Below are positions 31,023-51,827 of a stretch of DNA of 64,000 bases, one piece after another. The first letter of the stretch is position 1. Every line of letters begins with the position of its first letter. Origin of the DNA: Alkalihalophilus pseudofirmus OF4 (lineage in GTDB: Bacteria; Bacillota; Bacilli; Bacillales; Bacillaceae_D). The notes below the pieces were generated by a model. That model did not search any database. It saw only the letters and a program-made list of their open reading frames with translations, and had not been told where the DNA came from. The position numbers and the translations under genes are program-made. The stretch lies in assembly GCF_000005825.2 (NCBI RefSeq), contig NC_013791.2:2976001-3040000 (forward strand), given 5' to 3'.

Positions 31023-31236
31023 CTTGATCCTCCATTTCATTCAACTGAGCATTCTTCGTTTTCCATCTTACTGAAATTAAAGGATGTTATGTTGTTTTTT
31101 GGAAATTCAATACAATTAATATCTATTAGGATATCATTTTACCAATATATGGTAAATCGTAAAATTTATATTCGCAGTAGGAATATAATAAATTCCTTAT
31201 TTGATATTAATTTAGTTTTTACTATTGAAGCCATTG

Positions 31237-31722: not shown

Positions 31723-31749
31723 CCGTGTTGCCCTCCCTCCATTTATTTT

Positions 31750-32401: not shown

Positions 32402-32496
32402 TGATTACGGCCATTGAATATTACCACTAATGCCTTCTATCTTACCAACCTTCGCCAAAGTATTTACCAGGTGATGTCAAGCTCTTTACCAATAAG

Positions 32497-32530
32497 ACAC
32501 CCCTTACAGAATGCACATTGTAAGGGGTGT
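32497..32530 (-). terminator. Hairpin downstream of istB, copy 1
   Basis: ACACCCCTTACA (32,497-32,508) and TGTAAGGGGTGT (32,519-32,530) form a perfect 12-bp stem, extended by an outer CTCTTTA/TAAAGAG pair. It lies 20 bp after the istB stop inside the IS and could end its transcript. Confidence 0.6.
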
Positions 32531-32549
32531 AAAGAGAGCCTTATTTAAA

Positions 32550-33305
32550 TTAAAGTTCTTTACTTAATCCATATCTTTCCCTCATGGAAACTTCCCCGTC
32601 AATAAGAATCTGATAGGAATCATGAATAATACGGTCTAAGATTGCTTCTGCTATAGTTTCATTTCCTAATTTCATGTGCCAACCACTTGGATCTATCTGA
32701 GAACAGAATATAGTTGAAGCCACTTTGTGGCGTGCTTCTGCTATTTCTAAAAGGATTGCAGCTTCATCAGTAGACAACTCGGTCAGTAACCATTCATCAA
32801 GTATTAGTAGATCTACTTTTTTATATTTCTTTATACACTTACGATAACTTCCATCTGCAGCTAACTTTGCGAGTGATAATTCATCTATTAATTCTGGTAA
32901 GCGAATATATTTTACTTTGTAGAATTGACGACAAGCTGACACCCCAAACGCACTCGCTAAATACGATTTACCTGAACCAGTGGGGCCTTTCAAGATAATA
33001 TTATGACAATCGTGTATATAGGTACCATTCGCAAGCTTTAAAATAAGTTCTTTATCTAGTCTTCTATCCTCGTAATATTCTATATCTTCGATACATGCAT
33101 TGGAATCTAAGAATGTTGCTGATTTTATTAAGCGTTGAAGTGTATTGCTTTTGCGTCGAGAATACTCTAAATCAACAAGAAGAGTGAAACGATCTTCAAA
33201 GCTCATCTTTTGAAAATCCTTGCTTGATGATTGCTCTTTATAGGCGTCCGCCATGCCACCTAGTTTCATTTCGTGTAATTTAGTCAGTGTTTGGTCATTT
33301 ATCAT
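32550..33305 (-). CDS. istB: IS21 helper ATPase IstB
   Basis: A 251-aa AAA+ ATPase related to DnaC that directs IstA to target DNA. Walker A is GPTGSGKSY (about 105-113) and Walker B is LLILDEW (about 165-171), followed by the IFCSQIDPSGWH sensor segment. The start overlaps the istA stop by 4 bp (ATGA), the usual translational coupling in IS21. Confidence 0.93.
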   Translation of the reverse strand: MINDQTLTKLHEMKLGGMADAYKEQSSSKDFQKMSFEDRFTLLVDLEYSRRKSNTLQRLIKSATFLDSNACIEDIEYYEDRRLDKELILKLANGTYIHDCHNIILKGPTGSGKSYLASAFGVSACRQFYKVKYIRLPELIDELSLAKLAADGSYRKCIKKYKKVDLLILDEWLLTELSTDEAAILLEIAEARHKVASTIFCSQIDPSGWHMKLGNETIAEAILDRIIHDSYQILIDGEVSMRERYGLSKEL

Positions 33306-34852
33306 CTGTCTGTTCCTCCGTAGTAACCTGCTCCACGTGTGAAGCCGAAATTATTCTTAGTACTCTCTGATTTTCGTTTCAATTCTTGTTCAGCATCATT
33401 CTTCTTATTACTCTTCAAAATGGTCTGAATGCTTTTAACCGTAGGTCTTTTTGTCATAGAAATAACCATTTTACAAGCGCGTTCAATCTCATATTTTGTG
33501 TAACTTCTCTCTGATTTCTTTAACGAGAATATTGATTGCAATGCTTGTTTTTCGTTTTGAGATGTATCTAAGATGTATTGAACAACGTTCAACGTCGATT
33601 CTCCAATGCTCTTTGCCCACTCAAAGGCGGCTTCTGGTGTCTGATCTAGAAATAACTTGTGATTATCTGGCATATGGTCGCGACTAGTAGATAATTGACC
33701 ATACTTGCCATATAATCTTTTATGAGAGGCTACTCTCATATGGTTAAAGTAGACTTCAACCATATCGTCTAAGAGTTTCACATCTACTTCCCGATTAATA
33801 TACTCGTATGGAACTGAATAAAACATACTATCGACAGAGATGTGATAATCGGGACGTACTATGGCTTTTTTCCATTCGGACATCTTGTAAGGTTTACTAG
33901 GTAGAGGGGAAAGCGCAAATTTCTCCTCTTCCTCAAAAGCTGATAAACGACATCCTTTTTTCCGAGTAAAAGGACGTTCATTAAACTCCTTTAATTTCTT
34001 CCAAACTTCTTCGTTCAATTCATCAATGCTGAAACATTGTGTATTCCTTAAGGCTGCAATAATCCATGTTGAGATAGCATTAACTGAGCCCTCTACACTT
34101 GCTTTGTCCTTCGGACTTCGAACACGAGCAGGCATAACTACTGTACTGTAATGGTCCGCCATTTCTCTGTAAGTAGGGTTCAAAACCAACTCACGTGATG
34201 TATGCTTTGTCACACTCGTTTTCAAATTATCTGGCACAACAATTTGTGTGCTTCCGCCAAAATACTGATAAGCACGATTATGAGCTTGTATCCAAGAACT
34301 CAGATTCATAGATAATGTCACTTCCGCATAAGATATCTGACTGCATGGTAGTGTAGCAACGAAGACATAAGCCTTTACTTTCTCTCCAGAATCCCTATCA
34401 ATGACGAAAGCTGTAGATCCCGCCCAATCAACTTCCATAATTTCACCTGGCTTTCGGCGTATACGCAAAGTAGCTTTATATTTATCTGCATATCTACTGT
34501 AATGGCGCAAAAAGCTACGATACGAGTAAGGAATCCTGTTGTTAGCACGACACTCTGCTTCATACTCATAATGTAGAAGGGAGAGTGTTACATTCGGTTT
34601 GGCCAACTCTTCATGGATATAATCGAAGTTTAAAGGGTGTCTTCCTGATCCCTCCAACGTTTTCTCTGGGAAGAGAAATTCCTCAATCCATTTATCTGTC
34701 ATCTCTTCATCTAACGGACAAACAAGCCCTTTCTTTTCTGCTAGACGGATAACCTCTGTTACTTTTTGCCGAGAGTTGCCAGTGCTTGCCGCGATACCTC
34801 TAAGGCTAATTCCCTCGTCATGTAATTCTAAAATTTTCTGGTACTTAATCAA
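33302..34852 (-). CDS. istA: IS21 transposase IstA
   Basis: A 516-aa DDE transposase. It has an N-terminal HTH (LELHDEGISLRGIAASTGNSRQKVTEVIRLAEKKG) and an integrase core beginning GEIMEVDWAGSTAF, with VPDNLKTSV and KDKASVEGSVNAI carrying the second Asp and the Glu. I place the start at TTG 34,852, 7 bp after GGAGG, paralleling the GTG start of copy 2. The ribosome site lies in a hairpin (34,855-34,915). Confidence 0.92.
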   Translation of the reverse strand: MIKYQKILELHDEGISLRGIAASTGNSRQKVTEVIRLAEKKGLVCPLDEEMTDKWIEEFLFPEKTLEGSGRHPLNFDYIHEELAKPNVTLSLLHYEYEAECRANNRIPYSYRSFLRHYSRYADKYKATLRIRRKPGEIMEVDWAGSTAFVIDRDSGEKVKAYVFVATLPCSQISYAEVTLSMNLSSWIQAHNRAYQYFGGSTQIVVPDNLKTSVTKHTSRELVLNPTYREMADHYSTVVMPARVRSPKDKASVEGSVNAISTWIIAALRNTQCFSIDELNEEVWKKLKEFNERPFTRKKGCRLSAFEEEEKFALSPLPSKPYKMSEWKKAIVRPDYHISVDSMFYSVPYEYINREVDVKLLDDMVEVYFNHMRVASHKRLYGKYGQLSTSRDHMPDNHKLFLDQTPEAAFEWAKSIGESTLNVVQYILDTSQNEKQALQSIFSLKKSERSYTKYEIERACKMVISMTKRPTVKSIQTILKSNKKNDAEQELKRKSESTKNNFGFTRGAGYYGGTDR

Positions 34853-34854
34853 AA

Positions 34855-34915
34855 AAATACCTCCATATAAAAATGTCACACCATTAGGTGTGCACATTAA
34901 TTATACAAAGGTATG
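34855..34915 (-). promoter_or_regulatory. Hairpin occluding the istA ribosome site, copy 1
   Basis: On the minus strand ATACCT pairs with AGGTAT around an inner perfect hairpin CACACC-taat-GGTGTG. The 3' arm contains the GGAGG of istA. The same layout occurs in IS21 copy 2, which suggests that read-through transcripts from outside fold so as to block istA translation. Confidence 0.5.
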
Positions 34916-35048
34916 TTGTGGTAAACTCGTGGCATTAACTGGTACATTTATTGTCATTTGACGGTAAGAAACATGGCAGAGGTGGTACATATCAATGGCT
35001 GTAATCAGATTTAATTAATGCTATATCGCAGTACATTTTATAAATTAA

Positions 35049-35103
35049 AAATGAGCAAAATATGCAGAGCTTAATTAAAACCCTGCATCCTTTAGGCTCA
35101 TTT
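35049..35103. terminator. Nested hairpin downstream of the split gene
   Basis: AAATGAGC (35,049-35,056) pairs with GCTCATTT (35,096-35,103) and ATGCAG pairs with CTGCAT inside it. It lies downstream of the leftward gene fragment at 35,295-35,601 and may be its terminator. Confidence 0.4.
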
Positions 35104-35294
35104 CTATAACTATTTAATTTTCATGAATAGTATCGTTATACTACGCAGTAATTGGTTCAAAAAATTTTTAGGTATCTTGTTCAACATAAGCACATCTTTA
35201 AGTATAATCCTTCACATTCTCTTGTATGAATCATAACCATTTTGCACTGACTCTAAATTCTTTAAATTCAACTTGGAAACTAAATAAATCCACA

Positions 35295-35601
35295 CTAGTC
35301 CTCCAATGGGATTCTTTGGACAGTTCTATTAACAACCCCTAACTTTTTAACACACAATTGGCCATTGTTATAATCATTCAACAAATCTTCCATAGTAGCT
35401 ATGTAACTTTCATAATCATACCAACCTAACATATCCATTATCTCTATACTCTTGTTCTTACCAGATGCATTATGCAGAGCAAATTTACTATCTATCTGTG
35501 CCAATGCTTCAAAGCAACTTTTAGTTACATTTTTATTGCTCCCTTCTTCGTAATGCATAGATTGATTTCTTCTGATTACAGCCATCCGATTGAACCAGTT
35601 G
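35295..35601 (-). pseudogene. C-terminal part of a gene split by IS21 copy 2
   Basis: About 102 codons that start abruptly at the IS edge and read NWFNRMAVIRRNQSMHYEEG, ending VQRIPLED. No start codon or ribosome site of its own is needed if it continues from the fragment at 38,431-38,701, which has the same orientation beyond the IS. Unknown family. The product is acidic and soluble. The two parts do not join exactly in frame, so a few bases seem altered. Confidence 0.5.
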
Positions 35602-35662
35602 TGCCATCTTTTTGATCCGCCTCGGACATGAATTTGATCCAATTAAGACATGACTGACCCAC

Positions 35663-35712
35663 CCTCCTATATAATGAAGGAGCACATTTGTGCAAATTTA
35701 TTATATAGGAGG
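35663..35712 (+). promoter_or_regulatory. Hairpin occluding the istA ribosome site, copy 2
   Basis: CCTCCTATATAAT (35,663-35,675) is perfectly complementary to ATTATATAGGAGG (35,700-35,712). The 3' arm contains the AGGAGG of istA, 7 bp before its GTG. An inner GCACA/TGTGC hairpin tightens the loop. A transcript starting outside the IS would contain both arms and hide the ribosome site. Confidence 0.65.
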
Positions 35713-35719
35713 TTTTTTT

Positions 35720-37282
35720 GTGGTTAAGTATCGAGAAATCTTAAGGCTTCATGCGCAGGAAGTCACACAAAGGGGGATAGCTTCGAGCTGTGGCCATTCT
35801 AGAAACACAATTAGAGAAGTAATTCGGCGAGCGGAAGAGAAGAACATTCAGTGGCCAATAGAAAAGGACATGACAGATCAAGACCTACAAATGATTTTAT
35901 TCCCTGAGAAAAAGGTGCCGTCAGACCATCGTCGAAAGCCTGATGGCGAGTATATTCATAAGGAATTGGCTAAAACTGGGGTAACACTCTCCCTTTTATG
36001 GGACGAGTACTCTTTACAGTGCAGGGCAAACGATGAAATTCCGTACAGTTATCGTCAGTTTTGTAGATTTTACAACGACTATGCAAGGAAAACCAAAGCA
36101 ACAATGCGCATCAAAAGAAAGCCTGGGGAACAAATGGAAGTGGACTGGGCAGGTCAAACTATGCATATCACGAACAATCTAACAGGAGAAGAAGCTCCTG
36201 TTTATATTTTTGTTTCTGCATTGCCATGTAGTCAATATGCGTATGTAGAAGGATTCTTATCCATGGATGTAGAGAGTTGGATTACAGCCCATATTCATGC
36301 TTTTGAATTTTATGGGGGAGTCACGAGGATTATTGTTCCCGATAACTTAAAGACAGGAGTGACAAAGTCTTCCCGTACCGATCCTATTATTAATCAAAGC
36401 TATCAGGAAATGGCTGAGTTTTACCAGACTACTATTATCCCAGCACGTGTACGTCATCCCAAGGACAAACCAAGTGTAGAAGGTAATGTTGGTCATATCT
36501 CAACTTGGATCATCGCTTCTCTTCGCAATGAAAAGTTCTTTTCTTTGATTGAACTAAACAAAGCGATAAAAGAAAAACTAGATGTAGTGAATACAAAACC
36601 TTTCCAAAAGAGAAAAGGGAATAGGCAGGAAGCATTTTTAGAGGAAGAAAGATTTGCATTGATTCCCCTGCCTCATTCACCTTATGAGATCGCAAGCTGG
36701 GCAAAGACCGTTGTCCAGCCTGACTATCATATAAAAGTGGATCATAACTATTACTCTGTTCCCTATGATTATATCAAATATGTGGTAGACGTTCGAGTAA
36801 CGAGGAATATCATTGAAGTATTTTATAAGAATATACGAATTGCTTCGCATAAAAGATCAAATAAGTCAGGTGGAGATTTCAGTACTATTCCTGATCATAT
36901 GCCTAGAGACCATAGAAAGTATGCATCATTTGATAAGGAATTTATATTAGAGTGGGGTGCTACAACTGGCCCTGCCACCTTATTAACCATTGAAAGAATC
37001 TTAGAATCTTATCCGACTGAAAAGCAGGGCCTGAAATCTGCCTATGCATTAATGAAACTAGCAGATAAATACTCTATCGAACGCATAGAGAAGGCATGTG
37101 AAAGAGTGTTGTCCTATACGCCAAGACCCAAACTAAAAAGCATTCAAACCATCCTAAAAACAGGACATGACAAATTACCAGTAGAGGATACAAGCAAACA
37201 GTTGAGCACACAAAAAAATGATAACGTTTACGGGTTTACTCGTGGCGCTGATTATTACGGAGGGAATAATAATGACAATTGA
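35720..37282 (+). CDS. istA: IS21 transposase IstA
   Basis: A 520-aa DDE transposase. It has an N-terminal HTH (LRLHAQEVTQRGIASSCGHSRNTIREVIRRAEEK), a core starting GEQMEVDWAGQTM, then VPDNLKTGV and KDKPSVEGNVGHI. I choose GTG 35,720 because AGGAGG is 7 bp upstream. Homologous to copy 1 throughout but clearly divergent. Its stop overlaps the istB start by 11 bp. Confidence 0.92.
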   Translation: MVKYREILRLHAQEVTQRGIASSCGHSRNTIREVIRRAEEKNIQWPIEKDMTDQDLQMILFPEKKVPSDHRRKPDGEYIHKELAKTGVTLSLLWDEYSLQCRANDEIPYSYRQFCRFYNDYARKTKATMRIKRKPGEQMEVDWAGQTMHITNNLTGEEAPVYIFVSALPCSQYAYVEGFLSMDVESWITAHIHAFEFYGGVTRIIVPDNLKTGVTKSSRTDPIINQSYQEMAEFYQTTIIPARVRHPKDKPSVEGNVGHISTWIIASLRNEKFFSLIELNKAIKEKLDVVNTKPFQKRKGNRQEAFLEEERFALIPLPHSPYEIASWAKTVVQPDYHIKVDHNYYSVPYDYIKYVVDVRVTRNIIEVFYKNIRIASHKRSNKSGGDFSTIPDHMPRDHRKYASFDKEFILEWGATTGPATLLTIERILESYPTEKQGLKSAYALMKLADKYSIERIEKACERVLSYTPRPKLKSIQTILKTGHDKLPVEDTSKQLSTQKNDNVYGFTRGADYYGGNNNDN

Positions 37283-38021
37283 TAACACTTTAACAAAATT
37301 AAATGAAATGAGAATGACTGCAATGGCAGAAACATTAAGAGAACAATTGAGAAATTCAGAATACCAAGAACTATCTTTCGAGGAACGATTTGGGTTACTC
37401 GTTGATATCGAATGGTCCAGAAGACAAAACAATAAACTTGATCGCCTGATCAAGTCGGCTGAATTACGTGATACACAGGCATGTATCGAGGATATTGAAT
37501 ATCATCCGGATAGAAAGCTTGATAAAGCGCAAATTTTACGATTAGCAACCTGTAATTATATTGAAGAACATCACAATATTATATTAATGGGTGCTTCTGG
37601 AAATGGAAAAACCTATTTATCTTGTGCATTTGGCATAGCTGCATGTCGTCAGTTGTATAAAGTGAAATATATTCGATTACCAGACCTCTTGGATGAATTA
37701 GCAATCGCAAGAGGAGAAGGAACTTATAGAAAGGTGATGAAAAAATACAAGAATGTAAACCTACTCATCTTAGATGAGTGGCTATTAACTCCGTTAAAAG
37801 AGACTGAGGCAAGAGATCTTCTTGAAATCGTAGAAGCACGCCACCAGCAAGGATCAACTATCTTTTGTTCTCAATTTGATCCTAGAGGATGGCACGATAA
37901 AATTGGTGAAGGTACACTGGCAGATGCCATTCTAGACAGAATTGTGCACGATTCCTACACCATACTTATTGACGGTGAAGTCTCCATGAGAGAACGTCAC
38001 GGATTGGCGGTATCAAAATGA
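37272..38021 (+). CDS. istB: IS21 helper ATPase IstB
   Basis: A 249-aa AAA+ protein with Walker A GASGNGKTY, Walker B LLILDEW and IFCSQFDPRGWH. The start ATG 37,272 follows GGAGGG inside the end of istA; an upstream in-frame start has no support. The stop overlaps the start of a 66-codon frame. Confidence 0.92.
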   Translation: MTIDNTLTKLNEMRMTAMAETLREQLRNSEYQELSFEERFGLLVDIEWSRRQNNKLDRLIKSAELRDTQACIEDIEYHPDRKLDKAQILRLATCNYIEEHHNIILMGASGNGKTYLSCAFGIAACRQLYKVKYIRLPDLLDELAIARGEGTYRKVMKKYKNVNLLILDEWLLTPLKETEARDLLEIVEARHQQGSTIFCSQFDPRGWHDKIGEGTLADAILDRIVHDSYTILIDGEVSMRERHGLAVSK

Positions 38022-38218
38022 TCCCAGAAGAAGTTGAAATCCGTATAGCGAAGTATTTTTTACACATGTATTTACCTGATGAAGTAATGCGGAAAGTGGA
38101 AGAAAAACTCCTACCTCCATGTGTTTGGAAAGGTGAAGAGGAATTAGACTACGATGAACTCGTTCGTTGGTCTCTTGAGATAATTAATCAAGAACTAGAC
38201 GGTAAAAGCTTTAAATAA
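38018..38218 (+). CDS. Third small frame of IS21 copy 2
   Basis: A 66-aa acidic protein (MIPEEVEIRIAKYFLHMYLPDEVMRKVEEKL) whose ATG overlaps the istB stop by 4 bp (ATGA). It lies inside the inverted repeats of the IS. Standard IS21 elements have only istA and istB, and copy 1 has no such frame. Unknown function; the coupling suggests it is translated. Confidence 0.5.
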   Translation: MIPEEVEIRIAKYFLHMYLPDEVMRKVEEKLLPPCVWKGEEELDYDELVRWSLEIINQELDGKSFK

Positions 38219-38430
38219 GTCAAACAGCCATTGGAATGTTTCAGGTTTCAATGGCTTTATATCAATCTACTATTGTCTCTCTCCCCGGCACTTACTGGCT
38301 CATTCTGGCTCAATACTCATACGGAAAGATTACACCAATAATACTTTTGGATTCACTATTTATATGGTTGTGGATCACTTCTGTCATAAGTGGATCAATA
38401 TCTTGTCCGGAGTGGGTCAAAAAGATGGCA

Positions 38431-38701
38431 GAGATGGGGCTAACCTATGTCCTTCTTCACTTCCTGCAAAAATAATCGTAGCAACAAATGAGTCTTCTAT
38501 CTTTGGCTCTTGAGGGAAGTTAATAGTTTGACCGAATACAATAGAGAGTCCTTGTTTAGCTAATTGCAATATAGAACCTGCGAGTATTCTCCGAGTAACA
38601 TCAAAGATATCCGCTTCATTTCTGTACTTTTCAGATAGTTCCTTAGCGTTGTTCATCTCTTTAGTTATTCGTTCGCTATCAATCATCCCATTACTATCCA
38701 T
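38431..38701 (-). pseudogene. N-terminal part of a gene split by IS21 copy 2
   Basis: About 90 codons starting MDSNGMIDSERITKEMNNAKEL at ATG 38,701 and entering the IS after HRLAPS. The product is soluble and acidic, with no recognised family (residues FVATIIFAGSEEGHR near the break). It probably continued into the fragment at 35,295-35,601. Confidence 0.5.
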
Positions 38702-38775
38702 GCTTTTTTTGTTCGTAAATAATAGTCTACCTTTTTCATTTAAACTGCCACATTAGTATAAAACTTCACAAAAAA

Positions 38776-38802
38776 GGCGTTAATCCTTCTTGGATTAACG
38801 CC
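38776..38802 (-). terminator. Terminator after the GHKL-caspase gene
   Basis: GGCGTTAATCC (38,776-38,786) and GGATTAACGCC (38,792-38,802) form a perfect 11-bp stem. On the minus strand it is followed by TTTTTTGTG. It is about 110 bp past the stop of the giant gene. Confidence 0.8.
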
Positions 38803-38915
38803 CTTGTTTACCACAAGACACTCTTAATTGGCTATTCTCTTTCAGTGATAATGAAAAATCATTTTCCTTAAAAAGATATTACTAACGTAAGTTTAACTAC
38901 TATTTTTAATAAGGC

Positions 38916-41900
38916 TTATTCAATATTATTCATTTCCAAAATTATATTTTCATTTGATGACTCAATAATTGACCTAGGTATTTGAGTATATTTCCATTCA
39001 GGTTCAGTATAATTTGAGACAGAATTAGACAAATAGTTGCTTAATGACCTATCCGTTATATAATTTCCATTTACAATAGCACTCTTTTCTTTCCCACTTA
39101 ATGCATTAATTAAATGATAAGTCCAAACTCCATTCATTAAAATATCCGAGGAATATGAGCTTTGACCTGTTAAACAAGATAAAAATATAGAATAATTTGG
39201 ATTTTCGTTAGTATATATAACTAATTCATCATCAATAATATCCGATATATTACTTCTCTCATTTTCATCCTTAAAGATTTTGGCACAGGCATCTATAAAA
39301 ATTAATGCATTATTACATTTTGATTTTTTTAAAGGATCCAATAATAACTTTGATAGTGATATAGCTGTTTCCGTTATACTAGAAGAATGCATATCATAAG
39401 TTGACAAGTAGTTTGTTACTCCATTATGGAATCCATGACCTACATAATAAAAAATAAATCGATCTTTCTCAGTTAATGAATTAAATAGCATTTTAAGATC
39501 AAATTCTAAATTCGACTTTACTGCCTCTTCATTTTTTATAACAATAATATCTTCTTCTCTTATTTTCATATGATCAATTAATACATTTTTAAATTTCTCT
39601 GCATCATCGTTAGCATATTTAACAGGGGGGATTTGATTTTGATTTCTAGGAAAATAATTTTCTATAGAAATAATAAGAGCAACGTTTTTTTCATAGTGCG
39701 GTTTACTTAATGTTGTTACTGTTTTAGGTGGTCTATTTTCTATAACATTTTGATTCCCCACACGAACATATTTATAATTACTAATTAAAATTGGCTCATC
39801 ACTTTTTCCTATTTCTATAGCAAATATAATCTTTTGGTTATGTTGAGTCCAATCATACTTAATCTGTGGAACCTTTGATAATAATCTTACAGCTTCTCCT
39901 ATTATCTCAACTACTTTAAATTCTATACTTATACCTACAACTTCATTTAAATGTGAGTTAACTTCTTTAATTCCAAATATTAATTTACCTCCATCAGTAT
40001 TACTAAAGGCTGCTATGGTCTGTGATAATATCTGTGGAGTATATGGGACTGGGCTAAAGTCTAAAACCTTAGACTTCTTCTCTTTTAATATCTTATCTAA
40101 GTCATCTGAAATAAATTCAATGTTATTAATGGGAATTTTATTCATTCCTGTTTTCTTAAATAATTGTCCCATAGTTATCCTTCTAACACTATGTAAATCA
40201 CCATTTTCACACCACAGCTCAGCATCCATATAGTCTAGAACATCGAACTCAGAAGTATAGTATAATAAAACCTTATTTCCATCAGAAGGTCTGGCAACTA
40301 CCGCTATTTCATTACCATTTTTATAGATCCCTCCAATTATACTTTTAGCTATTCGATAACTATTTGAACAATCATATTCATCTAAAGTTGTTAGATAGTT
40401 TAATACATTAGTAACTGCTCTATCGACTAAACTTTCAGCATGAACTAATGCATTATATTCCGATTTAGATAAATGATAAAAAGAAGGAGGCATTTTGCTA
40501 TTTTCAATTTTACTTTCTAATTCTGCAAATGATTTTAACTTATTATCATTTGTAGCTCCTAAAATTTCGCAGTCATCCTCTTTAATATGAGTAATATCAA
40601 ATTCTTCAACTTCGAAATAATGCTTTATTTCTGGAATAGATGATCTTAAAAGAAAATCAATTTTTTTGTCATGACCTCTTAAATTATAATAATTACCTAA
40701 ATCCCCAGATAATTTTAATAACACACTGTTTGAGTCCCATGGTTCCTTTACATAAAGTGTGTTATCCATAAAGTGAGTATAAACTACTTTAGAAAATCCT
40801 AATTCATCATAAGTAATTTTTAATTCTTCTGCTTCGTATAATTCTAAGGCATCTGTATTTTCTTCTAGCATACTTAATGTAGTATTTATCAATTCGTTAC
40901 TTTCATCATTTTCAATCCAAACTTTTAAGTATGGTAAAATTTTATACAAATGGCTCTTTAACGAATATGCTGACTGTATTTCGGAATGAACTAATTTAAA
41001 CTCGCTTTGTCTTAAAATTTTTACTTTAAAGCAGTTTAAAAATGTTTCTAGAGACCGATGCTGTTTATTTTCGGAGCTTAAATAAATGAACCCATATTGT
41101 TCTTGGAATACAGATTCATTTCCATCCCAATAATAATATAGACTTTTGCATTCACCGAAGAACTTTTTACTATTTAATAAACAATTTTCTTCAGACCATT
41201 TTTTCACTATTTCAAGTTGGTCCTGATTCCAATACTCACAATTATCCATAAGTTGGTGATATATTGACTGAATTCTTTTTAAATTATCTTCTTTAACTTG
41301 ATTGTTATCGAGAGTGTCCATGGAAATTTGTGATAAAAGTTCTAAGTAGTCTTCAAGCTCAAGATGATTTTTTAAATTAAAAAATGATTTCCATTCTGAT
41401 GAAAGCTCATTGCCCTGAAAAACTGGCAGGTATTTACCTGCGACTTCAATTATCTCTTCCGAATTAAGAAAAATTGCACTCGAGTTTAAACAATTATTCT
41501 TTACTGTAGGTAAACAATTATTGTTCTTAATAAACCAAGGAATGTAGTTTTCTATCTCATCACCACTAATTCTCCCATGACGCCCACTATATCCCCAAAA
41601 TGCAAGAGCAGGTTTTTTTAATTCATTTGGAGAATATAAATCCATTATGTCTTCCCATAATATTTTGGCAACTTTAGGATTATTATTTATATTTTCAAGA
41701 AACTCAATTGAAACTATTCTTTCAAATTCATCCGCCCTAAATACAGAGTGAAAGGGTTTAAACTTTTTATCATCCTCATTAAAGTATTCGTCTTTAATTC
41801 CTTTTGATAATAATTGCTGTTTAGTATATTTGTCTGAGTAGTTTAGGAGTGAAATTCCTTCCTTAGCACCGAGTTTCTTAAAAAAACGTTTCCATTCGTC

Positions 41901-43946
41901 AATTTCTAATTTATTTTCACAATACTCTTCACTAATAAAAAAATCTTTCTGAATTAACATTTCTAAATCCACTCTTGGTTTATAGTAATTAGATAAATAA
42001 CATTCTTTTACTGGTATTAGTGAACCCTTTTGTGTAAGGATTTTAATTTTATTTAAGTCATTTAAAAGAGCATCATCCAAAACACCTTTTCTATATAATA
42101 AAAATAAATCAGTTATTAATTTATGTGTATTTTCTAATGTTGAAATGTTTTCAATATTCGGTATTATATTTTGACGTATGTAAGTTACATCAGTTTTTTC
42201 CTTAACACCTAAATTTTCAAGCCATTTATATAACTCTCGGTTGACTTTTATAGTTTTTTGAATTGCTTCATGTAAAAACATCAGATCACTTTCAGGGTTA
42301 TTCCAATTTGTATCATCGGGAGTTGGAATACATACTTGATTAGGAAAGCTTAGCTTTTGTTTGTGATTCCAAATAAAAGGAAGACTCTGCATAAATTGAT
42401 CATCAAATGGTTTAGTCTTTTTATCATAAAGTTTCTTCAAATGAGAAATTAAATAAATATTTTTAAACTCATTATGTTCCACATAAAAATAAGATGAAAG
42501 AAGAAACTTACTAAATTCATTCCAAGAAAACTTAAAGGAACATAAATCATTTATATATGTTGAATAGGGATTACTTTTTATAAATTTTTTATTCAAGGAT
42601 TCTTCATAATCTAAAAATCTACATACATATGCTTTAACAGCTTTTTCCCCAACAAAAGCTTTTTCAGATAAAAAAGTTGTATCTACTATAGCGTCCCTAA
42701 CAGTTATTAATTCATCATCTCTTGTAAGTATAAATTTAATTTTATTAAACGCTTCTTTAATACCACTATTGAAACTATTCCCTAATTCATTTTTATATAT
42801 TTCTTTTGGGATTAATTGATAACCTTGATACTTAAACTCCGAGCATACTAGCTCTGCAATCCAACGAACAATTTCAACAGGTAATGAATTAAAAATCCAT
42901 TGATTCCATTTTGAATCACTATGTAATGATTCTCTATTAGCCGCAGTTAAAAAACTTGTATTTACCAAGACTGGAAGTTCATATTTAGATTCACCTGTCG
43001 GTAAGTAAGAATACAATAGATTTTCTTCTTTAGATAATTTCACTATTTCATTATCAATAATTTTTGCAGCTAAAGTAATCTCAATTTCAGTTGCTGCTGC
43101 TAATTTTTCTGGAATATTTCTATCTTCATTAAGAATTGCTCGCATACTCTCTGGTACTTTTAATGTAGTACTTTTAATTATCCATTCTGAATTGCTATGT
43201 TTATTCTCTAATTTTATTATGTTTTCACTGCTACGATCTATCAAGATCGATGAACTCTGAGGAAGTTCGAAGTTAATTTTTGAGATATTTTTTAAGAATA
43301 AGAACATATTTGTGTTTTTAGTTAAATAGTTTATGGCTTCTTCAACGTCAGCTAAATTATGTAAAGTAATAATTGTTGCAACATTGATATCTTTACTTTT
43401 TATAAACTCCCTTATCGATAAACTTACTTCATCCTCTTTTGTATATATAGGAATTATCTGCCAAGGGTATTGAAACTTCCTGCCACTTTCAGTTTCCCAT
43501 TCCTCCCTAGAATATTCCCATTGCCATCTAAAATCATAGTCTCTATCAAATCTGAAATACTCACCGTTCGAATAAATTTTTACTTTATCTGACTGACCAA
43601 ATACAGATTTAAAACCTATTCCCTTATAGCCTGTCTTGCTAATGTCATTTTTTTTGGTTCCATTATTTACATTACAAATCCCCATTAAATCCCGCTTATC
43701 AAAAGCTTTTCCACTATGACCAAATATCAATTCTTGACCTATGATCTTCACCCAAACTTCAACAGGATTACCCTTTTCTAAAGAATCATCAGCATTTTGT
43801 AGTAACTCATAGATGAATCTATTTGCATCAGTATATAAATCACCAGATAATGCATTTAATGAGCTTGCCTGATTTACTGCTTGTGTCGGGTTTTTATAAG
43901 AAGAATTCTCTTCAAATATACGTATAATATCTTGATAGATTGTCAA
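38916..43946 (-). CDS. Giant GHKL (sacsin/Hsp90-like) ATPase - AlbA_2 - caspase-like protease
   Basis: A 1,676-aa multidomain protein. Residues about 1-350 form a GHKL ATPase of the sacsin/Hsp90-like type: N-box FIYELLQNADDS (about 44-55) and GYKGIGFKSVFGQSDKV (about 106-122). About 350-1,290 is a long mostly helical region without a known motif. About 1,290-1,395 is AlbA_2/Schlafen-like (LSQTIAAFSNTDGGKLIFGIKE). About 1,420-1,676 is caspase-like: VALIISIENY, YYVGHGFH (His about 1,504) and LIFIDAC (Cys about 1,554), the His/Cys dyad. The most likely start is TTG 43,946, 7 bp after GGAGG; an ATG at 43,973 is possible. It overlaps the upstream phosphatase gene. The build (NTPase sensor plus protease effector) suggests a suicide-type defence protein; this is inference. 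Confidence 0.85.
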   Translation of the reverse strand: MTIYQDIIRIFEENSSYKNPTQAVNQASSLNALSGDLYTDANRFIYELLQNADDSLEKGNPVEVWVKIIGQELIFGHSGKAFDKRDLMGICNVNNGTKKNDISKTGYKGIGFKSVFGQSDKVKIYSNGEYFRFDRDYDFRWQWEYSREEWETESGRKFQYPWQIIPIYTKEDEVSLSIREFIKSKDINVATIITLHNLADVEEAINYLTKNTNMFLFLKNISKINFELPQSSSILIDRSSENIIKLENKHSNSEWIIKSTTLKVPESMRAILNEDRNIPEKLAAATEIEITLAAKIIDNEIVKLSKEENLLYSYLPTGESKYELPVLVNTSFLTAANRESLHSDSKWNQWIFNSLPVEIVRWIAELVCSEFKYQGYQLIPKEIYKNELGNSFNSGIKEAFNKIKFILTRDDELITVRDAIVDTTFLSEKAFVGEKAVKAYVCRFLDYEESLNKKFIKSNPYSTYINDLCSFKFSWNEFSKFLLSSYFYVEHNEFKNIYLISHLKKLYDKKTKPFDDQFMQSLPFIWNHKQKLSFPNQVCIPTPDDTNWNNPESDLMFLHEAIQKTIKVNRELYKWLENLGVKEKTDVTYIRQNIIPNIENISTLENTHKLITDLFLLYRKGVLDDALLNDLNKIKILTQKGSLIPVKECYLSNYYKPRVDLEMLIQKDFFISEEYCENKLEIDEWKRFFKKLGAKEGISLLNYSDKYTKQQLLSKGIKDEYFNEDDKKFKPFHSVFRADEFERIVSIEFLENINNNPKVAKILWEDIMDLYSPNELKKPALAFWGYSGRHGRISGDEIENYIPWFIKNNNCLPTVKNNCLNSSAIFLNSEEIIEVAGKYLPVFQGNELSSEWKSFFNLKNHLELEDYLELLSQISMDTLDNNQVKEDNLKRIQSIYHQLMDNCEYWNQDQLEIVKKWSEENCLLNSKKFFGECKSLYYYWDGNESVFQEQYGFIYLSSENKQHRSLETFLNCFKVKILRQSEFKLVHSEIQSAYSLKSHLYKILPYLKVWIENDESNELINTTLSMLEENTDALELYEAEELKITYDELGFSKVVYTHFMDNTLYVKEPWDSNSVLLKLSGDLGNYYNLRGHDKKIDFLLRSSIPEIKHYFEVEEFDITHIKEDDCEILGATNDNKLKSFAELESKIENSKMPPSFYHLSKSEYNALVHAESLVDRAVTNVLNYLTTLDEYDCSNSYRIAKSIIGGIYKNGNEIAVVARPSDGNKVLLYYTSEFDVLDYMDAELWCENGDLHSVRRITMGQLFKKTGMNKIPINNIEFISDDLDKILKEKKSKVLDFSPVPYTPQILSQTIAAFSNTDGGKLIFGIKEVNSHLNEVVGISIEFKVVEIIGEAVRLLSKVPQIKYDWTQHNQKIIFAIEIGKSDEPILISNYKYVRVGNQNVIENRPPKTVTTLSKPHYEKNVALIISIENYFPRNQNQIPPVKYANDDAEKFKNVLIDHMKIREEDIIVIKNEEAVKSNLEFDLKMLFNSLTEKDRFIFYYVGHGFHNGVTNYLSTYDMHSSSITETAISLSKLLLDPLKKSKCNNALIFIDACAKIFKDENERSNISDIIDDELVIYTNENPNYSIFLSCLTGQSSYSSDILMNGVWTYHLINALSGKEKSAIVNGNYITDRSLSNYLSNSVSNYTEPEWKYTQIPRSIIESSNENIILEMNNIE

Positions 43947-44439
43947 TTGAATCCCTCCAAAAATGATAATCAAATTTCTTATTAAAATAATTCAATGTAC
44001 ATGTCATGATATTACCATGAATGCCTACTGCTACCCTTTTTCTACGATATTTAGAAACAATATGCTTCAAACCACTTATACCACGTTCTTGAACTTCTTG
44101 ATTAGATTCACCACCCGAAAACCTAAAAATGGGATTATCAAACACATATTTAATGGCTTCAAGTGGTTTATCAAAATAAAAATCTCTTGCTGCTAAGTCT
44201 CTCTCTATAAAACGGGAATCCAGTTCAATTTCTTTATGTAGATACCTTGCTAGTCCTTCTACTGTTTGTATTGCTCTTACATATGGACTAGATATTACAT
44301 ATTGAATATCCTCTTTTATCATTTTGTCAGTAATCTTTTTTGCGGTAGCCCAACCTTTTGCAGATAACTCTCTAGTTTCTTCGTTTTCTAATGAAAAATC
44401 AGAATGAGCGTGTCTAAGAAAATATATCTCTGTATTCAT
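43912..44439 (-). CDS. Histidine phosphatase-family protein
   Basis: A 175-aa protein of the phosphoglycerate-mutase-like branch. LRHAHSD (residues 8-14) is the RHG-type motif with the phospho-accepting His, SSPYVRAIQTVEGL supplies the second Arg, and GIHGNIM carries the second catalytic His. Starts at ATG 44,439. Its last 35 bp overlap the start of the GHKL-caspase gene, so the two are almost certainly cotranscribed and coupled. The substrate is unknown; it may process a nucleotide or phosphoprotein in the same system. Confidence 0.8.
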   Translation of the reverse strand: MNTEIYFLRHAHSDFSLENEETRELSAKGWATAKKITDKMIKEDIQYVISSPYVRAIQTVEGLARYLHKEIELDSRFIERDLAARDFYFDKPLEAIKYVFDNPIFRFSGGESNQEVQERGISGLKHIVSKYRRKRVAVGIHGNIMTCTLNYFNKKFDYHFWRDSIDNLSRYYTYI

Positions 44440-44519
44440 TAACTCCCCACCCTTCCACTTTTACTACATATTTATCAATCCATTTAACTCTATGACTTTA
44501 TCGTGACGAACTCTAACAA

Positions 44520-44684
44520 CTAATCTTCTAGTTCTTTCAATAAATCATTTGCTTCTTTTTCAATCTGCTTTATTTTTTCTTCCCTATTTTGTTTCCTTTC
44601 TTCAATTAATTGGTTCATTGATTTTTTATGATTAATACTTCTTGGCCATTTATTCAAATTTATAATTTTCTTTCTTTCTTTCAT
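44520..44684 (-). CDS. Small coiled-coil protein
   Basis: A 54-aa, highly charged helical protein (MKERKKIINLNKWPRSI at the start, then a K/E-rich coiled coil). AAGG lies 9 bp before ATG 44,684. It is read in the same direction as the phosphatase and GHKL-caspase genes, 80 bp upstream, and could be the first gene of that operon. Confidence 0.4.
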   Translation of the reverse strand: MKERKKIINLNKWPRSINHKKSMNQLIEERKQNREEKIKQIEKEANDLLKELED

Positions 44685-44809
44685 ATTTAATACCTTGCCT
44701 TTCTTAATTATTTATTTCAACCTTTACCTTAGCTACTTTCTATATCTTACCATTCAGACTCGACACCTTCACACAATACATGATTTATTGAATCCACATA
44801 TTAAAAAGT

Positions 44810-44831
44810 CCCGCCCAAATTAATGAGCGGG
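44810..44831 (-). terminator. Terminator downstream of hsdR
   Basis: CCCGC (44,810-44,814) pairs with GCGGG (44,827-44,831), with extra pairing inside. On the minus strand it runs into ACTTTTT. It follows the leftward restriction-modification operon. Confidence 0.5.
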
Positions 44832-44871
44832 TTTCTAGTTTTTTTAGATAATATTCTTAGCATAATACATC

Positions 44872-44917
44872 TTCTCACAAACTATTAACTAAATTAAAAT
44901 TATATAGTTTGTGAGAA
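44872..44917. repeat. 14-bp perfect inverted repeat
   Basis: TTCTCACAAACTAT (44,872-44,885) and ATAGTTTGTGAGAA (44,904-44,917) flank an 18-bp AT-only-like spacer. It lies between the hsdR stop and the next terminator. It may be a second terminator or the end of a small mobile repeat. Confidence 0.5.
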
Positions 44918-45027
44918 ATTTAATAGAAGAGCGTGATAATGGCTATTTTCGCACTCTACCTTTTCTACTATAAAAATGAAGGGTTGGTAAACCATCCTAC
45001 ATTTTTGTTTTGCTAATTCTTATAAAG

Positions 45028-48024
45028 TTATCCAGCGTTTATCTCTGTATATACTTCCGCAATAATCTTATCAATAAAGTATGATTGGAATTCTTGATCG
45101 CCTAAAATTTTATGAGTGTATTTTTCATTTGCTTCCATTCGGTCGATAACAAAATCAATTATACGCTCTTTCATTGCTAATCTAAAGTTATCATATGAAT
45201 TGTTTTTGGCCCTTACTTGTACATCTTCACTCTTTGTCATCGTTGACACTACTTGTTCATCAAACAATAAATCTTCTTCAGTAAATTCTGTACCAAATCG
45301 GTCATTTAACTTTTCCAATATACTAGACAACTTAGTCTTCTCATCTTCTACTGCTCCACCAGCACCATGTCTTTGTGGATCTAATTCCACGCCACCTGTT
45401 TTTTCAAGCTCGATGCTCCCTTCAAATACTTTTTGATTGCGGTAGTATTCTAGTGCCACATCATCTGCTAAATACACGTCTTTATCGTTTTTGTCACGCG
45501 GAAGCTTCCGTAGTAGGTAGTTTAAATAGATATATAACTTGTGTAAGTCTACATCGATAAACGTTGCAATTTGTAAAACGAACCCATACGTACGAGTAAA
45601 CTTTGTTGCAGCTGCTTTAAAGGCCTCTTGCTCTCCTGCTGAAAGTTTTTTATAACGTTCCACACCTTTATCAATTTCTGCATTTAGCGCAGTTTGTGCT
45701 GATGTAGATTTATTTAAACCGCCATTTAGTTCTAACTCATTTACCTTCTGTACTTCTTCTTCCGTAAAGATTTGATATGGCTCTAATTCACCTTGTAAGT
45801 CATATAAAATGTTGGGATCTGTAACTTCCGAAAGACTTGTTGACTCATAATACGGTTGGAACGATGCCTTAATATCTTCTTGCTCATTTACAAAGTCTAA
45901 AACAAATGTATCTTCTTTACCCGGACAAGTACGATTTAAACGAGATAATGTTTGTACAGCTTTAATCCCACTTAACGGTTTATCTACGTACATAGTATGA
46001 AGCAATGGTTCATCAAAGCCTGTTTGATATTTCTCTGCCACTAGCAACACTTTATACTCATCTGAATTAAACTTTTCAGGCAATTCTTTTTCAGAGAATT
46101 TGTTCATATCCGGCTCTGTATAAGAAATTTCGCCGTCCTTTACAGTACCTGAAAACGCTACGACTGTTTTTAAATCATCATAACCCTTTTCATCAATGTA
46201 CTTATCAAAAGCTATTTTATACCTCACTGCATGTAAACGACTCGCTGTGACCACCATTGCCTTTGCACGACCACCAATTTTACGCTTTACAAAATTCCGG
46301 TAATGTTCGATAATGATTTCCGTTTTCTGTGCAATGCTATGTGGATGCAATGACACATACTGAGCTAGCTTTTTGGTAGCTTGTTTCCTTGATACTTCTG
46401 GATCATCATCAATTGTCTTGGCAATTTTCCAGAAGGTTTTATATGTAGTATAGTTTTGTAAAACGTCTAAAATAAAACCTTCTTCAATGGCTTGACGCAT
46501 CGTGTACTCATGAAAGGCACGTGGTTTTCCATCCATTCCAAGTGTACCGAATTTCTCTAATGTTTTTGGCTTCGGTGTAGCAGTAAAAGCAAAGAACGAT
46601 ACATTATCTTGCTTACCACTTTTCATAATGGTTTCGATAATTTGTTCATCAAGAGACTCTAAATTTTCTTCTGCAATACGATCTTCATTGTAGGCATCTT
46701 CTAATGTCTTGTCCGATAAAATATTCGTTAATGCCGTTGATGCTTTTCCACCTTGTGATGAATGTGCCTCGTCAATTATCACTGCATACTTTTTACGATC
46801 TATTCCCGCTACTTTTTCCATAATGAATGGGAATTTTTGTAGAGTGGTAATAATAATACGTGTTTCATTATTAATCGCGTTAGCAAGCTGCGCAGAATCT
46901 TTATTAATACGCTCAACCATCCCCGCTTTATGCTCTAACTGATATACAGCATCTTGTAATTGCTTATCTAATACACGGCGATCTGTAATTACGATGACAC
47001 TGCTAAAAATCGATTCGTTATTTTCGTCATGCAGCTTTGCTAAACGATGGGCTAACCATGAAATTGAGTTTGTTTTTCCGGAACCTGCACTATGTTGAAT
47101 TAAGTAATTATGCCCTACAAGACGTACTTTTACATCCTCTTCAAGTTTCCGCACTGCATCTAACTGATGGAATCGAGGGAATATTAACATTTTGCGTTCC
47201 TCAATTGTATCACCGTTTGAATCTAATATATCGTCTTTCTTAATAAAGACAAAACGAAATAAAATATCCAATAAACTATCAGGTGCCAATATCTCTTCCC
47301 ATAAATAATGGGTACGGTAGTTTTCATATACAAGTGGATTTCCTTTTCCACCTTGATTTCCTTTATTGAATGGTAAGAAATACGTTTTCCCTTTTTTCAG
47401 CTCTGTCGTCATAAATACTTCATCTGGGTCAACCGCAAAGTACACCACTACACGTTCATTAAATTTAAACAACCGCTCATTTGGATCACGATCAAACTTT
47501 AATTGCTTCATCGCTTGTTCGACTGTCTGGTTTGTTAATGGGTTTTTCAACTCCATTACAATAAGCGGCAGCCCATTTAAAAACAGCACCATATCTACGC
47601 TATTATTATGTTTATCGCTATAGTAGACTTGACGGGCAACATTAAAACGATTTTTCGAATACCACTCATTCGTTAATTGATTCATCGTTGTAGCTGGTTT
47701 ATGGTAAGCAAATTTTAATGTCACACCACGATCTTTAATCCCTTTTCGTAAACATTCCACAAGCCCTTGCTTGGATGTTTTTAGTTGCTCTACAATTCGC
47801 TTTAACACCTGCTCTTTATAATTTGGTCCATAGGACTTTTCTAATGCACGTAAAGATTTTGATTGCGTATCTTCTAAGAAAGCAAATAACTCTTCTACAT
47901 CAATAGCATATTGTTTAAAAAGCGCACTTGCCTCTCCTTCAAGTACTCGCTTTTTATAACCATTTGCAATTAATGCTGCTTCAATATTCGTTTCAAATCC
48001 TTTTTCCGACGTATCCACTGCCAT
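45028..48024 (-). CDS. hsdR: Type I restriction enzyme, R subunit HsdR
   Basis: A 998-aa motor and nuclease subunit. The N-terminal PD-(D/E)xK nuclease has D144 and E158-x-K160 (NSVDMVLFLNGLPLIVMELK). The superfamily 2 helicase has Walker A AGSGKT (313-318), DEAH (418-421) and SFFAFTATPKPKT. ATP-driven translocation and random cleavage need HsdM and HsdS, encoded just upstream; the gap to hsdS is 15 bp. All key residues are intact. Confidence 0.95.
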   Translation of the reverse strand: MAVDTSEKGFETNIEAALIANGYKKRVLEGEASALFKQYAIDVEELFAFLEDTQSKSLRALEKSYGPNYKEQVLKRIVEQLKTSKQGLVECLRKGIKDRGVTLKFAYHKPATTMNQLTNEWYSKNRFNVARQVYYSDKHNNSVDMVLFLNGLPLIVMELKNPLTNQTVEQAMKQLKFDRDPNERLFKFNERVVVYFAVDPDEVFMTTELKKGKTYFLPFNKGNQGGKGNPLVYENYRTHYLWEEILAPDSLLDILFRFVFIKKDDILDSNGDTIEERKMLIFPRFHQLDAVRKLEEDVKVRLVGHNYLIQHSAGSGKTNSISWLAHRLAKLHDENNESIFSSVIVITDRRVLDKQLQDAVYQLEHKAGMVERINKDSAQLANAINNETRIIITTLQKFPFIMEKVAGIDRKKYAVIIDEAHSSQGGKASTALTNILSDKTLEDAYNEDRIAEENLESLDEQIIETIMKSGKQDNVSFFAFTATPKPKTLEKFGTLGMDGKPRAFHEYTMRQAIEEGFILDVLQNYTTYKTFWKIAKTIDDDPEVSRKQATKKLAQYVSLHPHSIAQKTEIIIEHYRNFVKRKIGGRAKAMVVTASRLHAVRYKIAFDKYIDEKGYDDLKTVVAFSGTVKDGEISYTEPDMNKFSEKELPEKFNSDEYKVLLVAEKYQTGFDEPLLHTMYVDKPLSGIKAVQTLSRLNRTCPGKEDTFVLDFVNEQEDIKASFQPYYESTSLSEVTDPNILYDLQGELEPYQIFTEEEVQKVNELELNGGLNKSTSAQTALNAEIDKGVERYKKLSAGEQEAFKAAATKFTRTYGFVLQIATFIDVDLHKLYIYLNYLLRKLPRDKNDKDVYLADDVALEYYRNQKVFEGSIELEKTGGVELDPQRHGAGGAVEDEKTKLSSILEKLNDRFGTEFTEEDLLFDEQVVSTMTKSEDVQVRAKNNSYDNFRLAMKERIIDFVIDRMEANEKYTHKILGDQEFQSYFIDKIIAEVYTEINAG

Positions 48025-48039
48025 CTATACTCACCTCAC

Positions 48040-49371
48040 TTAATCAAGTTCCAACTCACGCACATCAATCTTTCCTGTTACTGCTTCGTATATAAGAGAT
48101 TGGCGGTATTCTTTTAACTTTTCGATTTGTTCTTTAACTAGATTAATCAAATTAAAAATCTTCATTTGCTTATTGTAAATCCATTCATTTATCTCTCTTT
48201 GTTCTTCTAAAGTAGGAGGAATTGCAAAAATCAACTCTCTTACTTGAGCAAAGTTTAAACCCTCTCGTGAGCTACCATTTTGTGCAAACCAAATTTGTTG
48301 ATTAATAACATCAGAAGCCATCAACATATTGAAATAGTATGGATAAACCTTATTTTGGTTTAAACGAATAATACAAACGTGTTGATTCACATTAGCTCTA
48401 CCAAAATCTTTAGGGACAATTGTTGTTCTTCCAATAGATGCACCTGTAATATTTAGCAGTATATCTAAAGGTTGGACCTGAGAAGTTTTCATTTCTTCAT
48501 TGATTTCCTCTGAGATAAAAGCTAAGTCTTTTAAATGAATACCATCAAAATGAACGTTAAGGCTTCTTAAAAAAGGAATACCTTCATCAAGATAAATTTC
48601 TGCCCCCCCAGAAGGTGTTTTTCCACTCCCTACATGAATAGCGAAATGCTTAACTTTTTTTACTTCCCAATGCTCTGGGATTTCACCAATCCACTTAACT
48701 CCAGAATCTTTCATATTCATATTCGGATTTAACCCTTTTGTAACAGCTTCTGTAAGAATTGATTGACGTTGTTGTTCAAGTAATTTAATAAATTTTCCCT
48801 TTTGCTTGATTAATATATCAATATCTTTGACTTTATACTCAATGTATCTCACAATCCTTTTTTGAATTTCCAATGAAGGTATAGAAATAAACAAGTTTTC
48901 TATAACCTTCATGCCAATATTTTGTTGTGTACCGTAACTCCAACTAACTTCTACTTGCTCTCTAAAAGCCAGAGAACCAACAAAATAGTATAGATACTTT
49001 GGAATTACTATTTCTTTTTTTGCACGAATTAGTGCTAAAGGAGACCAAATGCTAAATTCCTCATCAGTGTCTACCATTGCAATATTACCAGTAGTTGCAC
49101 CTGATTTAACCATGAAAATATCATCTCTTTGTGGCTTACACTTCTTAATATATTTTTCATGATCTTCTTGAGAAATATATCCCCTTTTTAAATCGAAATT
49201 TAGATTTCCGTTTTTAACTGATTCTGCAGATAGAAATGGCACACCGTCTTCTAATAATTCAGGTGTTTCATGTGGTCCATCCGTAATAGGTATGTCTAAT
49301 ACTCTTTTAATTTTCATAACTTGCCAATCGTAATTGACATTGTTTCTCTCTAATTCAAATAATGGTTTCAT
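48040..49371 (-). CDS. hsdS: Type I restriction enzyme, specificity subunit HsdS
   Basis: A 443-aa DNA-recognition subunit with two target-recognition domains separated by helical spacers. The conserved segments KRIVRYIEYKVKDIDILI...LLEQQRQSILTEAVTKGLNPN and the C-terminal EQIEKLKEYRQSLIYEAVTGKIDVRE are the two repeats. A full-length copy with both domains. Its start overlaps the hsdM stop by 4 bp. Confidence 0.93.
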   Translation of the reverse strand: MKPLFELERNNVNYDWQVMKIKRVLDIPITDGPHETPELLEDGVPFLSAESVKNGNLNFDLKRGYISQEDHEKYIKKCKPQRDDIFMVKSGATTGNIAMVDTDEEFSIWSPLALIRAKKEIVIPKYLYYFVGSLAFREQVEVSWSYGTQQNIGMKVIENLFISIPSLEIQKRIVRYIEYKVKDIDILIKQKGKFIKLLEQQRQSILTEAVTKGLNPNMNMKDSGVKWIGEIPEHWEVKKVKHFAIHVGSGKTPSGGAEIYLDEGIPFLRSLNVHFDGIHLKDLAFISEEINEEMKTSQVQPLDILLNITGASIGRTTIVPKDFGRANVNQHVCIIRLNQNKVYPYYFNMLMASDVINQQIWFAQNGSSREGLNFAQVRELIFAIPPTLEEQREINEWIYNKQMKIFNLINLVKEQIEKLKEYRQSLIYEAVTGKIDVRELELD

Positions 49372-51799: not shown

Positions 51800-51827
51800 T
51801 ACTTAACAGAAGTAAGGAGTGATTAAT

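Follow-up and report, generated by a model that had tools for sequence, protein, structure and literature searches.

The window analyzed here, a 64,000-nucleotide stretch of the Alkalihalophilus pseudofirmus OF4 genome (assembly GCF_000005825.2, contig NC_013791.2, positions 2,976,001 to 3,040,000), encodes a giant protein that is probably an anti-phage sensor of the Tiamat (TmtA) family with a caspase effector attached via an exchangeable cassette. The cassette comprises a C-terminal sensor domain (CT), an AlbA_2 (Schlafen-type) domain, and the effector. An initial annotation, made from the letters alone, had described one chain joining a sacsin/Hsp90-like ATPase, AlbA_2, and a caspase-like protease, and had called it a candidate new defence system. 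That account did not recognise the protein as a Tiamat, missed CT, and passed over the integrative element on which the gene lies; its claim of novelty was too strong because the sensor is a TmtA protein. The system is not wholly new; what is new is the mode of effector attachment, CT then AlbA_2, exchanged as a cassette.

The giant protein and its one-chain relatives

The giant gene is a single uninterrupted open reading frame (ORF) on the minus strand, running from a TTG codon at 43946 to a stop at 38916. A Shine-Dalgarno sequence, GGAGGG, lies 6 bases 5′ of the TTG, and Met (or a start codon read as Met) fills the column of window residue 1 in all 11 rows of alignment A5; on these grounds a product of 1,676 amino acids (aa) is likely, versus 1,685 aa for the longest mechanical ORF. 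The signature motifs are found at aa 47 (ELLQNADD), 106 (GYKGIGFKS), 1314 (FSNTDGGKLIFGI), 1503 (GHGFH), and 1551 (IDACA). Frame, motifs, and domain profiles together bear out the one-chain architecture, and the His/Cys dyad is in place as His1504 and Cys1554.

Residues 5-1146 match the PADLOC TmtA model PDLC03972 with an E-value of 2.2e-288 (model positions 5-1125 of 1302), and the final 177 positions of the model are without a match in the giant protein. We take TmtA to be the Tiamat protein; in its discovery study, Tiamat was reportedly defined as a single gene. A 2026 review places Tiamat, largely uncharacterised, in a group marked 'Unknown' (PMC12926258). Relatives of the window protein belong to the same sensor family: for L113 the PDLC03972 match spans aa 1-1300 of 1321, and other relatives match PDLC03967. 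In the window the TmtA match ends before CT, and neither the caspase nor the AlbA_2-effector genes found in relatives fall within the TmtA matches. The NCBIfam sacsin ATP-binding domain (3.2e-21) and Pfam SACS (1.7e-9) were both detected above cut-off, and solved sacsin structures were the best but weak profile matches of the sensor (best E = 0.0026). Over aa 1-1140 the sensor is 43-52% identical to 10 relatives in A5, and E47, N51, and H77 are unchanged in 37 of 38 aligned sensors, the remaining one having a gap. The His (window 43716..43718) occupies the G1 position in these same 37 sensors; this position is Asp in most GHKL enzymes, and His is unusual for the fold.

When the phylum was searched for the TmtA family, 137 of 398 genomes gave matches, many of them only through short ATPase-domain or C-terminal stretches, and 7 of 14 control genomes matched as well; the search was therefore not used for counts. 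Among plasmids, 16 records gave a match in a search for whole-protein relatives, none with a place covering 80%; four IMG/VR scans confirmed no relative, and phage records gave one weak match, to the ATPase domain.

Pfam Peptidase_C14 matched aa 1416-1676, scanned alone, at 4.1e-12 (46.7 bits versus a cut-off of 21.4), so that the domain passes a sequence-family test for a caspase, and PADLOC gave a caspase match in the giant protein at 4.5e-11. Peptidase_C14 also matched all eight members of alignment A8 (the window protein and seven relatives); it was unlisted in a whole-protein Pfam scan at E ≤ 0.1, and a caspase profile run against sequences of solved structures gave nothing at E ≤ 0.1. 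The EACC1-associated caspase model (NF047832) was rejected, at 40.6 bits versus a curated cut-off of 140. Eight one-chain relatives were identified, two from Flavobacterium, one each from Aquimarina, Enterococcus, and Shewanella, and one each from Aliivibrio, Firmicutes, and Deltaproteobacteria metagenome-assembled genomes, and they are 44.8-50.5% identical to the window protein over 1,573-1,673 columns. Both dyad residues are invariant in all nine caspase-type proteins. The caspase part of L084 is disrupted by an inserted element, presumably of IS3 type.

Ten neighbours of the one-chain relatives were scanned in PADLOC. Strong hits (Avs2, IetS, HamB, LmuB) adjoin four of the eight relatives and weak partial hits adjoin two (L083, L087); consistent placement outside defence islands was not what was seen. 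The initial interpretation is partly supported: its ATPase sensor with a caspase effector is backed by homology, by the dyad, and by the defence genes beside most relatives.

CT, AlbA_2, and the effectors they carry

Bacilli relatives share CT, a domain of ~125 aa, and their adjacent gene encodes AlbA_2 joined to another enzyme. Because of this arrangement, a collection of 84,980 species genomes was scanned by short peptide patterns of CT alone, with AlbA_2 outside the query. The scan, a pattern-based genome sample in which function names rest on homology, identified 48 loci; the origins shown for 37 of them fall in six phyla. AlbA_2 follows CT in all 47 judgeable loci (L127 stops at a contig end), fused in 8 and encoded by an adjacent same-strand gene in 39, with gaps of -11 to +37 bp; among 735 ORFs called in the CT loci, there was no further AlbA_2 match at E ≤ 1e-3. 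Five extra Bacilli loci (L002, L062, L063, L068, and L069) also have AlbA_2 after CT, and L059, L060, L061, and L064, whose contigs equal in length those of L122, L093, L111, and L118, respectively, were not added to the count. In total, a fused or adjacent AlbA_2 follows CT in 52 of 54 evaluable loci. CT profile A1 matched the window's own genome only, among 398 genomes of the phylum, and alignment A1 was too variable for a pattern search.

The 52 loci with AlbA_2 encode HEPN-like effectors (19), LmuA-type nucleases (12), caspases (8), TIR effectors (8), and CAP12-type TIR effectors (4), with no recognised effector in one. Within the 48-locus set the corresponding numbers are 19 HEPN-like, 11 LmuA-type, 8 caspase, 4 CAP12-type TIR, and 4 other TIR, together with one locus without a recognised effector (L090) and one cut (L127); the five extra Bacilli loci contribute four TIR and one LmuA-type. 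The caspase is part of the sensor chain, and the non-caspase effectors are encoded by a separate gene closely spaced from that of the sensor. The TIR and CAP12-type TIR classes are based on Pfam calls on four examples, the others being assigned through BLAST links to those. For the LmuA type, the effector parts of L061, L063, and L064 are 46-50% identical to the nuclease part of LmuA encoded in the window, and the rest were assigned through BLAST links; Tiamat and Lamassu thus share one effector, the difference being that here the LmuA-type effector rides on AlbA_2 beside an Hsp90-like sensor, without LmuB. Two things support the HEPN-like class: an R-x4-H motif, invariant across the 16 proteins aligned, and a MAE_18760-Schlafen fusion known from the literature; no Pfam model matched either of the two HEPN-like examples scanned. 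In L092 and L100 the HEPN-like effector is divided across two ORFs. An adaptor that bears quite different effectors in relatives resembles a plug-in site where the weapon can be exchanged.

The AlbA_2 gene of L090 (5417..5806) encodes only 129 aa and no recognised effector; it is either a truncated gene or a plug that has no weapon. In L101 a stand-alone 493-aa caspase-like gene (6251..7732), possibly a second effector, lies immediately upstream of the pair encoding TmtA and AlbA_2-HEPN.

In the giant protein, Pfam SLFN_AlbA_2 scored 1.9e-8 (35.3 bits versus a gathering cut-off of 25.3). The HEPN-type relatives show an acidic motif, E....E[YF]K, which we equate with the catalytic carboxylates known from Schlafen RNases. 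Of the 20 loci L089-L108, 19 retain this motif, and L106 has R in place of K. It is not kept in AlbA_2 of the window or of other caspase-, LmuA-, CAP12-TIR-, and TIR-type loci (window plus 47 relatives aligned), which suits an adaptor role for those domains, and a catalytic AlbA_2 in the window was rejected on this ground. These observations bear on an alternative in which AlbA_2 is itself the active effector, a Schlafen-like RNase, with the caspase secondary, for example releasing AlbA_2. AlbA_2 is the constant part across loci, a search with its profile A6 hits solved Schlafen structures (E = 1.1e-4 at best), and a 2026 BREX survey takes prokaryotic Schlafens as RNase effectors (PMC12839542); together with the motif kept in L089-L108, this is what the alternative would explain. 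The caspase dyad, however, is kept where the AlbA_2 motif is not, and we consider an RNase role for AlbA_2 in the giant protein unlikely.

Exchange of the CT-AlbA_2-effector cassette

Trees and distances were computed for 38 of 49 systems (the window and the 48 loci). L090, L092, L094, L100, L102, L106, L110, L112, L117, L123, and L127 were left out because their sensor or effector was split, incomplete, or truncated at a contig end; L120 stayed in although half filled, and L084 was kept in the trees and in the nine-protein caspase-type alignment and excluded from A7 and A8. The stand-alone caspase of L101 was tried as a row in A4 and removed as misaligned. Effector type agrees more closely with the trees of CT and AlbA_2 than with that of the sensor: the sensor tree (first 400 aa) requires six changes of effector, and the other two require four, which is the minimum. 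A single clade of caspase-type sensors was rejected with the first 400 aa of the 38 systems (p = 5.7e-6) and again with 1,153 sensor columns of 11 proteins (p = 4.2e-5), where nuclease-type L113 is nested inside the caspase-type sensors with support of 98/98. A grouping of six caspase-type rows without L081, L083, and L084 was also rejected, at a p-value of 2.5e-62 that is too extreme for a literal reading. HEPN-type L093 pairs with CAP12-TIR-type L115 in the sensor tree (support 95), and L105 combines a caspase-type sensor with a HEPN-like effector.

Pairwise distances across the 38 systems correlate most strongly between CT and AlbA_2 (r = 0.884), followed by sensor and CT (0.702) and sensor and AlbA_2 (0.634), and the CT-AlbA_2 correlation exceeded that of sensor and CT in 98.8% of 1000 half-samples. 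L113, from Sediminibacillus, is a natural chimera: compared in 60-residue steps, its last 3 residues aside, it is 51-81% identical to caspase-type L086 up to residue 1140 and 78-95% identical to nuclease-type L111 thereafter. These results show that CT, AlbA_2, and the effector are exchanged together. Given the exchange pattern, the fit between trees, and the switch near residue 1140, CT acts like a socket and AlbA_2 like its plug, and we infer that they may be in physical contact.

Several points weigh against this interpretation or against an anti-phage role. CT, AlbA_2, and the effector are contiguous, so that co-inheritance alone is no proof of contact; CT and AlbA_2 are short, with weakly resolved trees and long-branch warnings, and the sensor tree holds one very long row (L107) and the half-filled row of L120. 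The link between CT and AlbA_2 is not universal, because two cyanobacterial plasmids that encode sensor and CT, L079 and L138, gave no match to AlbA_2 (E ≤ 0.05) within 16.4 and 12.4 kb, respectively; they may use a different adaptor or have their partner elsewhere. No defence gene was seen beside two of the eight caspase-type relatives (L085 and L088, one neighbour scanned each), and ordinary Pfam neighbours include a Na/H exchanger (L082), a beta-lactamase-type protein (L085), and a GTPase (L088). Hydrolysis of ATP is unsure because the G1 position is His.

In the proposed mechanism, the GHKL ATPase and large middle region of the giant protein would detect an infection signal, and an ATP-driven rearrangement or oligomerisation might then be relayed through CT to the bound AlbA_2, a pairing suggested by co-inheritance. 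The caspase would thereby be activated to cleave cell or phage proteins, and infection would be stopped by cell death or growth arrest, that is, by abortive infection. In relatives, the same CT-AlbA_2 joint would carry an RNase-like, nuclease, or TIR effector encoded in a separate, closely spaced gene. On balance, we lean towards viewing this branch of Tiamat as a plug-and-socket immune platform, in which CT docks AlbA_2, once a Schlafen-type nuclease and now a non-enzymatic adaptor in most effector classes, to deliver at least five effectors (caspase, HEPN-like RNase, LmuA-type nuclease, TIR, and CAP12-type TIR). Recombination where the sensor meets CT would give rise to new systems, and in its caspase form the platform would be a one-chain, inflammasome-like sensor-protease. 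With effector location and cassette exchange known, the mechanism of Tiamat becomes directly testable. Other AlbA_2 genes annotated as Schlafen-like may likewise be effector carriers, and an Hsp90-like sensor fused to a caspase would be a further parallel between bacterial and animal cell-death immunity.

Related systems and genomic setting

That AlbA_2 is joined to other defence enzymes is already known. Passages of PMC3710099 describe a HEPN MAE_18760-Schlafen fusion, which by description, with no profile hit, is probably the AlbA_2-HEPN effector of the relatives; those passages contain no link to an Hsp90-like ATPase and no AlbA_2 joint for other effectors. In prokaryotic Argonaute loci, AlbA_2 is likewise joined to a defence enzyme, being fused to SIR2 or to the core protein, which there is Argonaute, and the available portion of PMC6299218 describes it as a DNA-binding domain rather than an exchangeable joint. 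The EAD coupling of NTPase conflict systems (PMC7159879, in part) is alike in that small matched domains join a core to interchangeable effectors, including caspases, but it involves other NTPases and coupling domains, and the terms GHKL, Hsp90, sacsin, and Schlafen have zero occurrences in the accessible text. Canu and other bacterial caspase defences (PMC12799240) also direct a caspase-type protease against phage; Tiamat, Hsp90, GHKL, and Schlafen have zero occurrences in the portion of that text available, and Canu is recognised by a nuclease gene downstream of the caspase, whereas no nuclease gene follows the caspase in the window, the next ORF there lying on the other strand. PADLOC models of candidate PDC-S35 match the CAP12-TIR effector protein of L059 (best 3.8e-88, aa 94-276 of 278), the difference being that the match covers the TIR part, not AlbA_2, and that the L059 sensor gene belongs to a separate PADLOC family. 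Among the matches listed from open-licence PMC literature, none described Tiamat with AlbA_2 or exchangeable effectors; a prior description is possible in the Tiamat discovery paper or in a 2025 bacterial-Schlafen preprint.

The giant gene lies on a 40.4-kb integrative element (Table 1) with a 17-bp perfect repeat, TTCTACTCTCGTTAATC, at both ends (starts 18842 and 59242). The insert is absent from all three related genomes compared, one of the same species and two of the same genus, the third being more diverged beside the site. Two genes on the element, at 56589 and 57990, presumably encode tyrosine integrases. PADLOC also identified LmuA, LmuB, and LmuC (19152..23553), a TIR protein, and a type I restriction-modification (R-M) system on the element; the R-M genes lie upstream of the giant gene at 45028..51380 (PADLOC run on two of three), in keeping with the setting first described.

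This setting bears on a further alternative, that the giant protein has nothing to do with phages and is a chaperone or a stress-response protease. We know of no phage test of this branch of Tiamat, and passages of PMC3710099 present animal sacsin as a chaperone that contains Hsp90-like modules and a HEPN domain. Against this stand the mobility of the element, the defence genes on it and beside relatives, and effectors that belong to classes known from anti-phage systems, and a chaperone or stress-response role appears as improbable as an RNase role for AlbA_2.

Table 1. Positions in the window of the giant gene's domains and of associated features
Feature	Position	Strand	Basis
Integrative element, 40.4 kb, in 3′ end of rpsD, carries giant gene	18859..59258	.	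17-bp repeat and genome comparison
Caspase (Peptidase_C14) domain, aa 1416-1676, His1504 and Cys1554	38919..39701	-	Pfam, PADLOC, alignment
AlbA_2 (Schlafen-type) domain, aa 1277-1405	39732..40118	-	Pfam SLFN_AlbA_2 1.9e-8
CT domain, aa 1150-1276, proposed AlbA_2 docking socket	40119..40499	-	17 invariant columns, 9 sequences
Middle region of TmtA sensor, aa 401-1140, no fold assigned	40527..42746	-	PADLOC PDLC03972 over aa 5-1146
GHKL (sacsin/Hsp90-like) ATPase domain, aa 1-400, sensor N terminus	42747..43946	-	N-box E47/N51, HxGxxF 77-82, GYKGIGF 106
Histidine phosphatase (branch 1), 175 aa, RHA at 9-11	43912..44439	-	His_Phos_1 7.9e-24
Shine-Dalgarno GGAGGG for TTG 43946	43953..43958	-	Direct sequence reading
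Terminator-like hairpin between R-M genes and phosphatase gene	44810..44831	-	Scan: 3 sites in region versus 2.3 expected by chance

The histidine phosphatase gene does overlap the giant gene by 35 bp, as initially annotated. That the two form a new two-gene system, with the phosphatase controlling or assisting the ATPase-caspase protein, would fit this overlap, the scan's finding of no terminator-like site between both genes, and the RHA motif, but is slightly less probable still than the foregoing alternatives, because tblastn at E ≤ 1 found no phosphatase relative in any of the 48 homologous loci, among them the 8 that share the window protein's domain order, and because plasmid relatives occur in 16 records, of which the two neighbourhoods viewed hold unrelated genes and no defence genes. 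A conserved partnership was rejected on these grounds, and the phosphatase appears to be a local neighbour only.

Elsewhere on the element, the TIR protein (25829..26674) matches PADLOC candidate PDC-S66 at 4.3e-96 and also ThsB models, and genes for DUF6530 (51819..52247) and DUF3800 (52436..53632) proteins adjoin the R-M genes. On the downstream side of the giant gene, 32550..34897 and 35690..38021 hold what we take to be two IS21-like istA/istB pairs; the next ORF of at least 100 aa past the caspase (37218..38021, opposite strand) presumably encodes an istB-like ATPase.

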